A DNA stretch of 40,885 bases from a virus, in IMG/VR virus record IMGVR_UViG_3300036760_000297, positions 1 through 40,885 of that record; one strand, given 5' to 3'. Both the position numbers and the translations under genes were made by a program. This document shows positions 3,337 through 40,112 of this stretch, piece after piece. A model generated the notes under the pieces. The model searched no databases, had not been told where the DNA came from, and saw nothing but the letters and a program-made list of their open reading frames with translations. Within the stretch, counting starts at the first letter, position 1. Every line of letters begins with the position of its first letter.

Positions 3337-4100
3337 GTGAAGCAGCAGCAACGCATGCGAAGGCTGTCCTGGATTCCTACACGTCGGCGCCAACCGCAGC
3401 CGCAGTCTACGCCGACACCGACGTGTTTCCGGCGCAGGCGCTCGCGGCTGCGGCGGCGGCGCACGCGGTCGATCATTCGGAAGCGACCCCAACGGCGGCC
3501 AGCGTTTCCGCCGACTCCACGACTCTCGTCGGTACCGGCGTCACCGTGCAGGCCGTCCTCGAGGAACTCGACAACGGGATCGCGGATCATCTCGCGGACA
3601 CGGTCGCAGCCCATGCCGCGACCGCGATCTCGGCTGACTCGACGACCCTCGTCGGTGTCGGGACGACGGTCCAGGCTGTCTTCGAGGAGTTGGACGATGC
3701 AATCGCAGCGGTGACTCCGGGGCCGATCTTGGCCCGCAGGCTGACGTTCACGGAGACGGCTGGGGCAGGAACCTACGCGGCCTCGGCCGTACTGGCAGCG
3801 GGGGCCGCGATCCATCAGGTTTCGTGGGAGACGACGGCAGCCTGGGATGCGGACACGGCCACGATCGATCTCGGCTACACGGGGACGCTGACGGCTTACG
3901 GCAACGACCTCGACGTGGACGGGGTAGCGGAGGCGACGGTGTTCCTGGCGGCGGCTGCGAGCGTACCCGACTACTTCGCGGGCGGCACGACGTTCACGGC
4001 GACGCTGACGGCGGTCGGCACGGGCGGCACGACGGGTCGCACGATCGTCTGGGTCTGCTATTCGATTCCGCCGGCCGCGACCGCAGCGACGAAGAGTTAG
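3333..4100 (+). CDS. Virion surface or fibre-type protein with VQAVLEELD repeats
   Basis: This 255-residue protein has an Ala-rich N-terminus, then two similar segments (DSTTLVGTGVTVQAVLEELD and DSTTLVGVGTTVQAVFEELD, about residues 60-130), then a Gly/Thr/Ala-rich beta-sandwich-like C-terminal half. The VQAVLEELD repeat is common in phage fibre and baseplate proteins and also occurs in the protein at 21310. The start is ATG with GGGACGG 5 bases upstream. Between terminase and portal a decoration protein or short fibre is plausible. The exact role is inferred. Confidence 0.6.
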   Translation: MSEAAATHAKAVLDSYTSAPTAAAVYADTDVFPAQALAAAAAAHAVDHSEATPTAASVSADSTTLVGTGVTVQAVLEELDNGIADHLADTVAAHAATAISADSTTLVGVGTTVQAVFEELDDAIAAVTPGPILARRLTFTETAGAGTYAASAVLAAGAAIHQVSWETTAAWDADTATIDLGYTGTLTAYGNDLDVDGVAEATVFLAAAASVPDYFAGGTTFTATLTAVGTGGTTGRTIVWVCYSIPPAATAATKS

Positions 4101-13648: not shown

Positions 13649-16605
<2,957 letters not shown>

Positions 16606-29599: not shown

Positions 29600-29633
29600 T
29601 GGAGCATCCTGCGTCTGTGGTAGCGTTCATGTT

Positions 29634-29704
29634 CGCGCTCTGGAGGAATGGCACCTCGGCGGCCTCATAAGCCGCAGGACCGAGTTCGACTCTCGGGGGC
29701 GCTA
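29634..29704 (+). tRNA. tRNA-Met (CAU), initiator-like
   Basis: A complete cloverleaf can be drawn by hand: acceptor CGCGCTC with GGGCGCT, U8-G9, D arm GAGG/CCTC with loop AATGGCA, anticodon arm GCGGC/GCCGC with loop CTCATAA (CAU anticodon), a 4-base variable region AGGA, and T arm CCGAG/CTCGG with loop TTCGACT. CCA is not encoded. The first base pair is a C1-U72 mismatch and the second D-stem pair is A11-U24. In bacteria, a mismatch at 1-72 and a purine 11-pyrimidine 24 pair are features of initiator tRNA. The three G-C pairs of the anticodon stem are only partly present. Confidence 0.85.
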
Positions 29705-29730
29705 TAGGTAGTAGCTCGCCGGGTATCGAG

Positions 29731-37683: not shown

Positions 37684-37871
37684 GCGCCTACGTAGACCCA
37701 CGGCACCCATTCGAGATCACGCACGACCTTTGCAGCTACACCTTCCCGCTCTCAAACGGCGACGAGGCGCAGTTGATCCTTCCTAGGGTCGTCACAGAGG
37801 ACGACGCACGGCGGCTCGCTGAGTTCATCCGGTGCGTGTGTGCCGGCAAGGCCATCGAGGCTGGCGCGTGA
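37680..37871 (+). CDS. Small unknown protein (63 aa)
   Basis: GTG 37680 overlaps the preceding stop. A beta-rich first half (YTFPLSNGDEAQLILPRVVT) is followed by a helix with two Cys (LAEFIRCVCAGKAIEAGA). It ends within the start of the cytosine methyltransferase gene, suggesting coupling. Confidence 0.55.
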   Translation: MSAYVDPRHPFEITHDLCSYTFPLSNGDEAQLILPRVVTEDDARRLAEFIRCVCAGKAIEAGA

Positions 37872-39697
37872 ATGCGGGATCTCTCTTCAGCGGGATCGGC
37901 GGACTCGACCTTGGCGTCGGCGTCCCTCCCGCCTGGTTCTGCGAGTACGACAAGCACTGCCGAACCGTGCTCGAGCGCCACTGGCCCGGAGTCCCCATCT
38001 ACCACGACATCAGAGAGCTCGGAGCCGACGCAGCACGAGTCGACGTGCTCCACGGCGGATATCCGTGCCAGCCGTTCAGCGTCGCCGGGAAGCGCGAAGG
38101 AGCCAACGACCCCCGGCACTTGTGGCCCGAGTTCGCCCGACTCATTCGCGTCCTACGACCCCGAGTCGTCGTCGCTGAGAACGTCGCAGGCCACCTTCGA
38201 CTTGGGTTTCACGCCGTCCTTGCCGACCTTGCCGGCCTGGGGATGGATGTCCGGTGGGGAGTTGTACGAGCGTCCGATGTCGGCGCCCCTCACCAACGCG
38301 CAAGGCTCTTCGTTGTTGCCCACTCCACGGAGGGGCGAGACGGCGGATCAGACGAGCGAGGAGGGGTACTTCGAGAGCCTTTCGTCGCTGGTGCCGAGGT
38401 TGTTCCAGACTCCGAACGCGACCAGGGCAGAGGTTCGATCAGACGCGACTCCGCTCCTGCGCGAGCAGGTCAGACTACTACAAACGCCGAGCGCGGCGGA
38501 CGCGATGGGAGGACATCTGGGCCGCGGCGGGGCGAGGTCGGGGGAGTTGTTACTGAAAGGCCAAGTGAAGGCCCTACCGACGCCCAGGGCGACGCGTGGC
38601 GGCTCTCAGACGGAGACGGTGGTGCTGCTTCCAACGCCATCAGCGAACCAATACGAGCAGGACAACGATGTGCTTCTAGCCCGGAGGGAGCGGGAGGAGC
38701 AGAAGCACAGGAACGGCAACGGTTTCGGGCTGACCACTGCGAACGCGATGGCGCTCCTGCCGACCCCGAACACAATGGACGGAATGGGACAGCGAAGCCC
38801 GGAAGCTCTTGCTCGGGCGAAGAAGCTCGGCGGCTGCTCAAACCTGAAGGATGTGATCCCGCTGCTGCGGACGCCCTACGCGGGGACGCCGAACAGTCAT
38901 CGCGGACGACCGCAGGGAGCGGCTCTCAGGACGAGCCAGGGTCACACGGTTTCTCTAGGGGATCAGATCGTGGACTTGCTCTTCCAGACGCCGAGTGCAG
39001 CGGACGCGATGGGAGGGCACCTGAACCGGGGCGGAGCGAGGTCGGGGGAGTTGCTGCTCAAGGGTCAGGTGAAGGCACTCCTGCCGACGCCATGCTCGCA
39101 GGAGCCGGGAGGGACGCCGGAGCGGTTCCTCGAACGCAAGAATCGCGACGGCGGCAACCGCACGGCGGAGAACGGGAATCTAAGCCTAACTCACACGCTC
39201 CAACTCCTGCCGACGCCAACAGTGGGCGACTCAAAGCAGGCTCGCAACTCGACGGCGAAGCGGAACAAGATCCCGCCGACGGGCATCCACGCCGGAGACA
39301 CGCTGACGGATGCGGTGACGCTGCTCCCAACGCCGACGACGCAGCCGATGACGGGGAACGGTCACGCGCGGAACCTCGGGAAGGAAGCGCGGCTCCTGCC
39401 GACTCCGACCTCGGACGGCGGGATGCGGAACACGAACGACACGTCGGACTATCAGACGCTGCCTGGGGCGCTTATGCGCCTGCCATCCGTCGATGGGAGC
39501 GAGTCGTCGGAGACGCCCCCCGACCCACCGACGAAAGAGGCCGCCTGATGCCCGAGTTCGTCGAATGGATGTTAGGACTTCCGATCGGATGGACGGAAGG
39601 GCCAGCACGAACGCATCGATTGAGGATGCTTGGAAACGCGGTTGTCCCGCAGCAAGCTGCTCTTGCCATTCGTCTCCTCGGAGGCTTGGGTGACTAG
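37868..39697 (+). CDS. C5-cytosine DNA methyltransferase with long variable middle
   Basis: The catalytic half is intact: motif I LFSGIGGLDLGV (residues 6-17), motif IV with Cys67 in GGYPCQPFSVAGKR, motif VI AENVAG (103-108), and motif VIII HQRARLF (142-148). After residue 155 the frame becomes Glu/Arg/Gly-rich repetitive text, and the last 50 or so residues return to the conserved FVEWMLGLPIGWTE and motif X RMLGNAVVPQQ. The frame is open for all 609 residues, but the middle is overprinted by a second frame (see 37872-39548). GTG 37868 overlaps the previous stop (GTGA). The enzyme would add a methyl group to cytosine C5, probably against host restriction. Confidence 0.8.
   Translation: MNAGSLFSGIGGLDLGVGVPPAWFCEYDKHCRTVLERHWPGVPIYHDIRELGADAARVDVLHGGYPCQPFSVAGKREGANDPRHLWPEFARLIRVLRPRVVVAENVAGHLRLGFHAVLADLAGLGMDVRWGVVRASDVGAPHQRARLFVVAHSTEGRDGGSDERGGVLREPFVAGAEVVPDSERDQGRGSIRRDSAPARAGQTTTNAERGGRDGRTSGPRRGEVGGVVTERPSEGPTDAQGDAWRLSDGDGGAASNAISEPIRAGQRCASSPEGAGGAEAQERQRFRADHCERDGAPADPEHNGRNGTAKPGSSCSGEEARRLLKPEGCDPAAADALRGDAEQSSRTTAGSGSQDEPGSHGFSRGSDRGLALPDAECSGRDGRAPEPGRSEVGGVAAQGSGEGTPADAMLAGAGRDAGAVPRTQESRRRQPHGGERESKPNSHAPTPADANSGRLKAGSQLDGEAEQDPADGHPRRRHADGCGDAAPNADDAADDGERSRAEPREGSAAPADSDLGRRDAEHERHVGLSDAAWGAYAPAIRRWERVVGDAPRPTDERGRLMPEFVEWMLGLPIGWTEGPARTHRLRMLGNAVVPQQAALAIRLLGGLGD
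37872..39548 (+). CDS. Overlapping frame: Leu-Pro-Thr-Pro repeat protein
   Basis: ATG 37872 is 4 bases after the methyltransferase GTG, in the next frame (GTGAATG). From about 38148 this frame reads SFASYDPESSSLRTSQ, then LPAWGWMSGGELYERP, and then about twelve LLPTP or LFQTP repeats separated by 20-60 residues. It stops at 39548, overlapping an ATG in the methyltransferase frame (TGATG). A duplicated segment inside it (38481-38580 and 38985-39084) differs almost only at synonymous sites of this frame, so it appears to be translated. I recall similar repeat proteins beside phage cytosine methyltransferases, but cannot check. The part before about 38148 may be only a shadow. Confidence 0.6.
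   Translation: MRDLSSAGSADSTLASASLPPGSASTTSTAEPCSSATGPESPSTTTSESSEPTQHESTCSTADIRASRSASPGSAKEPTTPGTCGPSSPDSFASYDPESSSLRTSQATFDLGFTPSLPTLPAWGWMSGGELYERPMSAPLTNAQGSSLLPTPRRGETADQTSEEGYFESLSSLVPRLFQTPNATRAEVRSDATPLLREQVRLLQTPSAADAMGGHLGRGGARSGELLLKGQVKALPTPRATRGGSQTETVVLLPTPSANQYEQDNDVLLARREREEQKHRNGNGFGLTTANAMALLPTPNTMDGMGQRSPEALARAKKLGGCSNLKDVIPLLRTPYAGTPNSHRGRPQGAALRTSQGHTVSLGDQIVDLLFQTPSAADAMGGHLNRGGARSGELLLKGQVKALLPTPCSQEPGGTPERFLERKNRDGGNRTAENGNLSLTHTLQLLPTPTVGDSKQARNSTAKRNKIPPTGIHAGDTLTDAVTLLPTPTTQPMTGNGHARNLGKEARLLPTPTSDGGMRNTNDTSDYQTLPGALMRLPSVDGSESSETPPDPPTKEAA
38481..39084 (+). repeat. Diverged repeat pair inside the overlapping genes
   Basis: The segment at 38481-38573 recurs at 38985-39077. 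In the second frame both read QTPSAADAMGGHL then RGGARSGELLLKGQVKA, with one Gly/Asn difference among about 31 codons, while about 14 codons differ synonymously. In the methyltransferase frame the same DNA gives clearly different residues (for example NAERGGRDGR versus DAECSGRDGR). Confidence 0.8.
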
Positions 39698-40112
39698 ATG
39701 GATAGATGATCCCGTGCGGCTCTGCCTGGTCTGCGAGGAGCCGTTGACACGCAAGCGGTTCAACGGGCGCCTGGAGGATCGGACACGATTTCTCTCTCGC
39801 AGGACGTGCGGCCAGTCCTGCGGAAACTTCAGGCCGGAGCCATCGCTTGACGGCTACCGCAGTCGCGCCCGCAAACTACGTGGTGACTCCTGCGAACGGT
39901 GCAGCAAGACGACCGACCTCCACGCACACCATGTCAATGGCGACGTAACGGACAACCGCGCCGAGAACATCGAAACAGTCTGCGCGTCGTGCCACATCGC
40001 CGGCCACTGGGCTGGGAAGCGCACCCACGCACTGAGGATGCTCGGCAACGCCGTCGTCCCTCAACAGACGCGATTCGCCCTCGATCTGCTGTCACAAGGA
40101 GCGCCGTCCTGA
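39690..40112 (+). CDS. HNH endonuclease carrying a methyltransferase motif X tail
   Basis: GTG 39690 overlaps the end of the methyltransferase gene by 8 bases. The 140-residue protein has a first Cys cluster (CLVCEEPL at Cys12/15; CGQSCGNF at Cys40/44) and an HNH core: CERCSKTTDLHAHHVNGDVT (Cys68/71, His80/81), then NRAENIETVCASCHIAGHW (Asn93, Cys98, Cys101, His102). The last 30 residues (RTHALRMLGNAVVPQQTRFA) repeat the methyltransferase C-terminus just upstream. It is likely a homing-type nicking or cutting enzyme that inserted at the methyltransferase gene. Confidence 0.8.
   Translation: MTRWIDDPVRLCLVCEEPLTRKRFNGRLEDRTRFLSRRTCGQSCGNFRPEPSLDGYRSRARKLRGDSCERCSKTTDLHAHHVNGDVTDNRAENIETVCASCHIAGHWAGKRTHALRMLGNAVVPQQTRFALDLLSQGAPS

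Follow-up and report, generated by a model that had tools for sequence, protein, structure and literature searches.

How is a stretch of phage DNA read when a cytosine methyltransferase gene and the reading frame one base later are both open? The question is raised by positions 37868 to 39697 of the window, by which we mean the whole stretch of DNA analyzed here, which is a virus record from IMG/VR, 40,885 bases long. The initial annotation of this locus offered two answers, namely that two proteins are made from one stretch or that a frame switch joins the two conserved ends of the methyltransferase through a frame of repeats. To our knowledge, it is rare in DNA phages for both frames of a long overlap to be genuinely used. 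From a comparison of homologous loci, we conclude that the stretch probably encodes two proteins, with the second partnering the methyltransferase as a target-recognition subunit in trans, a reading to which we give a probability of about 0.72.

Two open frames in the window

Frame A runs on the plus strand from a GTG at 37868 to a stop at 39697 (609 aa, no internal stops) and consists of motifs I to VIII, a stop-free linker of ~380 aa opposite the repeat array of the other frame, and motifs IX and X. Motifs I, IV (PCQ), VI (ENV), VIII, IX, and X all occur in order, with GGYPCQP at 38054, ENVAGH at 38177, and HQRARLF at 38291. The C-terminal domain (WGAYAPAIRRWE; 39464 to 39697, plus strand) holds the motif IX region (RLMPEFVEWMLG) at 39542 to 39577 and motif X (LGNAVVPQQ) at 39629 to 39655. 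Pfam DNA_methylase (PF00145) matches residues 1 to 154 only (E = 8.9e-36), and PHROG_363 and PHROG_116 also match frame A. By its motifs and profile matches, frame A is thus predicted to be a C5-cytosine DNA methyltransferase, and the uninterrupted 609-codon frame with methyltransferase motifs at both ends that had been read from the letters is borne out by the absence of internal stops and by the Pfam match.

Frame B, one base later than frame A on the same strand, has a maximal ORF of 558 aa from an ATG at 37872 to a stop at 39548 and appears to encode a nested LPTP-repeat protein. In the 5' overlap (38109 to 38313, plus strand), where frame A carries motifs VI to VIII, frame B carries a conserved N-domain ([WY][ND]P....W ... 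P.WG.MSGG..YE.P). It is followed by a 12-module LPTP-type array (38316 to 39463, plus strand) with motifs at 38316, 38403, 38478, 38574, 38628, 38757, 38865, 38982, 39081, 39207, 39324, and 39396. These 12 motifs, of the forms LPTP, FQTP, LQTP, and LRTP and spanning 38316 to 39407, agree with the initial annotation of a second frame open for 558 codons with about twelve repeats. PHROG_1008 ("DNA methyltransferase") matches frame B at aa 35 to 311 (E = 6.8e-35) and separately matches the 3' end of frame A at aa 460 to 604 (E = 1.2e-27), which indicates that in other phages the frame B part and the frame A 3' end form one protein. Searches of Pfam, NCBIfam, and PDB with frame B gave no match, and a search of IMG/VR with the window's own B protein gave no close relative.

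Directly 3' of the methyltransferase gene and outside the dual-coded unit lies an HNH endonuclease gene (39690 to 40112, plus strand) with a second copy of motif X at its C terminus (HALRMLGNAVVPQQTRFALDLL). The arrangement looks like that of a gene which entered the methyltransferase gene at its 3' end and brought a replacement end along. HNH genes like this one are also found inside the LPTP array of two related loci, L178 (mid-array, past the third LPTP module) and L220. Elsewhere in the window, we observe a large ORF (13788 to 16313) in which GATGPTG repeats of collagen-like character occur in two stretches, probably a tail or fiber protein, and a tRNA-Met gene (29633 to 29705; anticodon CAT).

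Three layouts of one gene family

Homologues were drawn from 12 phage loci, from IMG/VR and GTDB genome loci found via the C-terminal domain, and from further loci found via the N-terminal domain; one alignment (A2) lacked any stretch conserved enough to scan with. With the N- and C-terminal domains placed by profiles, 271 non-redundant loci were compared. Hundreds of phages and prophages, the majority from actinobacteria, have related loci, and in nearly all 271 loci the first LPTP module after motif VIII is in the +1 frame. In layout i (103 loci, the window included), motifs IX and X are in frame A and the LPTP modules in frame B; this group includes isolates such as CheeseTouch and ReT1v-2 as well as bacterial chromosomes. 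In layout ii (86 loci), frame A ends soon after motif VIII (12 to 39 nt past it in the 26 low-GC loci examined), and both the modules and motifs IX and X are in frame B. Layout iii (68 loci) has the first module or modules in frame B and the later modules together with motifs IX and X in frame A. The remaining 14 loci are irregular, and in some of them the array has decayed or an HNH insertion is present. Layouts i and ii are interconverted by a change of one base where the array meets the C-terminal domain, and frame B is a separate protein even in layout iii, whose enzyme chain has modules of its own.

Two individual loci add to this picture. In L071 (genes near 4000 and 6200), a second pair of methyltransferase N- and C-terminal domains lies ~2 kb further on, so that some phages carry two such genes. 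The array of L271, on a bacterial chromosome, contains a module of the common GGPNQRGSSGD type with an in-frame stop (GGPN*RGSS), which suggests a decaying prophage copy of frame B.

Both frames are kept free of stops

Expected stop numbers were obtained by synonymous shuffling with the protein of the other frame held fixed. Across 262 loci, the first 60 methyltransferase domain codons carry about as many frame B stops as chance predicts (449 versus 421 expected), whereas the last 40 domain codons, which cover motifs VII and VIII and precede any LPTP module, hold a single stop versus 206 expected. The drop falls just past motif VI in every layout, low-GC loci too, with the same per-bin pattern in each, and loci with a GC content of 0.38 to 0.47 are equally open in B.

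Whether homologues keep both frames free of stops, a check proposed along with the initial annotation, has a clear answer: where motifs IX and X lie in A, frame A is open through the array in 175 of 177 loci, and B is usually open too. Where motifs IX and X lie in B, A has stops in 85 of 86 loci. Among loci with a GC content of at least 0.65, A is open in 150/150 with motifs IX and X in A versus 1/21 with them in B; base composition therefore does not explain the openness of A. As layout i is defined partly by open frames, these unconditional counts (262, 177, and 86 loci, and the 115 below) are preferable to figures of zero observed stops. Frame B is interrupted by one stop or more in 12 of 115 layout i-like loci (18 stops versus 90 expected), which indicates that B is dispensable or damaged in some.

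Within the window array, 7.8 A-frame stops are expected with the B protein fixed and none is present (0 of 200 shuffles open), and 2.6 B-frame stops are expected with A fixed (P = 0.085). In L178, where the HNH gene is inserted in frame B within the array, A is open across the insertion (4.1 stops expected, none seen; P = 0.009). Judging from these stop counts, frame A appears to be translated straight through the array when motifs IX and X lie in A.

An internal start for frame B

Just upstream of the stop-free stretch, 215 of 257 loci have an internal Shine-Dalgarno sequence with an ATG or GTG for B, versus 36 expected. With the A protein fixed, the numbers for layouts i, ii, and iii are 85/103, 66/86, and 64/68, versus 12.6, 16.4, and 6.7 expected. 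The site forces unusual codons on frame A, namely, AGA or AGG for the Arg of ENVR (47 of 80 GC-rich loci; 11% elsewhere) and AGT for Ser (48 of 76; 5% elsewhere). In Arthrobacter phage Leona, the annotated start of gp42 is the internal GTG at this same site, and gp42 overlaps gp41 by 251 nt. Because B is stop-free before motif VIII and most loci have the internal Shine-Dalgarno sequence and start, B is, by the evidence of the comparison, a separately started +1-frame protein in most relatives, made without a frameshift.

With respect to the window itself, the Shine-Dalgarno position of the internal B starts in relatives is occupied by AAGGAG (38097 to 38102, plus strand), and the conserved start codon is absent, its position reading ACG/ACC, not ATG. 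Other possible B starts are the ATG at 37872, a TTG at 37911, and TTG or ATG codons past 38200; the true start may be the ATG at 37872 or a nonstandard ACG at 38106. The closest relative of the window (L331, 66%) also lacks the conserved internal start, and its B is open to its 5' end. In this subgroup, B may start beside the start of A. The openness of B at its 5' end in the window is uninformative (0.8 stops expected, P = 0.41).

Selection on the two frames

In the layout i array, changes that are nonsynonymous in A and synonymous in B occur at a rate of 0.514 per site, those nonsynonymous in both at 0.161, and those synonymous in A and nonsynonymous in B at 0.131, which gives a nonsynonymous/synonymous ratio near 0.3 for B; these rates come from pairs that are 65 to 95% identical, with related pairs pooled, and are descriptive rather than independent counts. 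The B ratio in the array is likewise ~0.3 in layouts ii and iii, and the corresponding A ratio in layout i is ~1.2. These rates point to purifying selection on B in the array; codon-position rates gave no sign of amino acid conservation of frame A there, A being simply stop-free. In the 5' overlap, the third positions of A codons are slowed, for example, from 0.358 to 0.194 in layout i pairs of 80 to 97% identity, and A is still conserved, which indicates that both frames act there. Between the modules that begin at 38478 and 38982 in the window, B codon positions 1, 2, and 3 have 3, 1, and 14 changes (32 codons compared), a pattern that marks selection acting on frame B.

The two frames that the initial annotation took to be constrained over more than 1 kb both show constraint in the 5' overlap; in the array, only B is constrained at the amino acid level. 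It had also pointed to protein-like text in both frames at 38150 to 38340; the look of the text does not establish coding, since the B text is partly a forced +1 reading of conserved motifs VI to VIII, but the comparative stop, start, and rate data indicate that B is translated there.

Modules form a shared pool and are rarely repeated

The 853 modules fall into recurring families, and the three layouts draw on the same ones, with frame B carrying them in layouts i and ii and frame A in layout iii. Clustering of 471 internal modules at 60% identity gives 156 types, and only 1 of 523 pairs within one array is of the same type, versus 9.8 to 20.5 by permutation (P <= 0.0005). The sole such pair is in the window (38478 to 38573 and 38982 to 39080), with 81% DNA identity and near identity in frame B. 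The median best identity of a module is 0.79 to modules of other loci versus 0.33 within its own array. Removal of identical copies by recombination may be an alternative cause of this nonrepetition.

Structural models were considered for two relatives. The layout iii chain of L280 resembles a C5 methyltransferase, with M.HhaI giving the best PDB matches, and the region between motifs VIII and IX is disordered and has no strands. In the layout ii B chain of L075, a small strand-rich N-domain (pLDDT, ~80 to 87) and the motif IX-X end are modeled with confidence, and the majority of the LPTP array is of low confidence. This model gave no fold match in PDB. Among viral structures, most of the matches were to further phage methylases of this type.

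Probable production of two proteins and the alternatives

In our preferred reading, frame A would yield the catalytic C5 methyltransferase chain, with motifs I to VIII and IX to X separated by a linker that is unconserved and stop-free in the repeat region, and frame B, from its own start, would yield a nested protein with a small N-domain overprinted on motifs VI to VIII and the LPTP modules behind it. B would bind A as a subunit that recognizes targets for it in trans, with one DNA target contributed by each module, and phage DNA would in this way be protected against several restriction enzymes. Structural support for the recognition role is lacking, since B has no PDB or Pfam match and its array is mostly low confidence in the model.

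The production of two proteins from one stretch, one of the two possibilities raised initially, is supported by the near absence of B stops before motif VIII and by the internal Shine-Dalgarno sequences and starts. These same observations bear on the other possibility, a programmed frameshift, in which ribosomes past motif VIII would slip by +1 and continue in the LPTP frame, returning before motif IX in the window layout, to give one mosaic chain. Such a chain would fit PHROG_1008, where a single protein has both LPTP modules and motif X, the position of the first LPTP module in +1 in nearly all loci, where it coincides with the tail of motif VIII as read in +1, and the inclusion of methyltransferases among phage genes with frameshifts (PMC10885494). 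B nevertheless lacks stops over 40 or more codons before the supposed shift site (1 versus 206 expected) and has start sites far in excess of chance, neither of which a frameshift at motif VIII would call for, and the openness of A in 175 of 177 loci would serve no need had translation left A. We reject the frameshift on the B-stop depletion upstream of motif VIII and the internal starts and consider it very improbable. Even less credible is that frame B is a passive shadow of GC-rich repetitive DNA, with only the methyltransferase real: chance ORFs are longer at high GC, and part of the B text is a forced reading of conserved motifs, but B is equally open in low-GC loci, purifying selection in the array acts on B and not on A, the same modules form an in-frame protein in layouts ii and iii, and the window paralogues differ by 3/1/14. 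A chance open frame is accordingly rejected on the low-GC loci, the GC-matched layouts, and the codon-position rates.

The one-base difference between layouts i and ii allows the window layout to be read as an otherwise ordinary enzyme of the alpha/beta split type that carries a sequencing error or an indel of recent date, with A running through the array by accident. Against this stand 103 independent layout i loci, isolates and bacterial chromosomes among them, the GC-matched contrast in A openness (150/150 versus 1/21), and the 7.8 A stops expected in the window and not seen; we hold it to be highly improbable and, at the level of the family, reject it on the number of loci and the openness of A. 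A different kind of doubt concerns the role of B, since two proteins could be made with B as a chaperone or scaffold, an inhibitor, or an anti-restriction protein that works without methylation. The lack of detectable homology between LPTP modules and known recognition domains would agree with such a role, as would the persistence of a separate B in layout iii despite modules in the enzyme chain. In layout iii, though, the enzyme chain holds modules between its motifs VIII and IX, and in layout ii the modules are joined to motifs IX and X; they are also diverse and not repeated within arrays, which a simple scaffold would not need. A role of B other than specificity seems to us unlikely, if still worth taking seriously.

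A wider proposal can be made, which we put forward tentatively and at somewhat less than even odds: this widespread phage methyltransferase family would place specificity in a separate overprinted +1 subunit that is a combinatorial array, with each LPTP module reading a different target, drawn from a shared nonrepeating pool, and with one-base shifts moving modules among free subunit, beta chain, and enzyme. Should the modules set DNA targets, they would amount to a code of short recognition units that is already at hand, and would show how phages gather protection against many restriction enzymes. The three layouts across hundreds of phages and prophages act as internal controls and make the origin and upkeep of overprinted genes directly testable.

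Relation to known methyltransferase systems

Existing annotation has either a single gene or a pair of "DNA methylases" that adjoin or overlap. In Leona, gp41 and gp42, overlapping by 251 nt, are both annotated as DNA methylases; in the loci examined, layouts i and iii are not given as two proteins. Genes called "DNA methylase" twice, or "hypothetical protein," would be parts of one system. A literature search covering LPTP motifs and overlapping frames in methyltransferases found, in the literature open to it, no published description of LPTP arrays, a nested start, or the three layouts.

The multispecific methyltransferases of Bacillus phages are single-frame enzymes. Those of SPR, SPbeta, phi3T, rho11, and H2 have tandem recognition domains, with several specificities in one C5 enzyme (PMC8936443). 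In layouts ii and iii, the LPTP modules likewise stand between motifs VIII and IX, and in the window they are in the other frame; the likeness is one of position, the modules being mostly 25 to 45 aa long, with up to 12 per array.

The small polypeptide of M.EcoHK31I is encoded in an overlapping +1 frame. M.EcoHK31I is one C5 methyltransferase made of two polypeptides, of which the small one holds only motif IX and the large one the recognition domain (PMC3404938). In the window, motifs IX and X are both in frame A (motif IX at 39542 to 39577) and B is the LPTP array; sequence comparison indicates overlapping frames under selection here, from which two polypeptides would be made.

C5 enzymes made of two chains, such as M.AquI and M.EcoHK31I (PMC3404938), are already known, as are phage enzymes with recognition domains in tandem (PMC8936443). 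In M.AquI, motifs I to VIII are in one chain and the distal variable region with motifs IX and X is in the other, and the text consulted describes neither the array nor a large dual-coded overlap for it (PMC3404938). This alpha/beta split corresponds to layout ii (86 loci), whereas in the layout i window motifs IX and X stay with motifs I to VIII.
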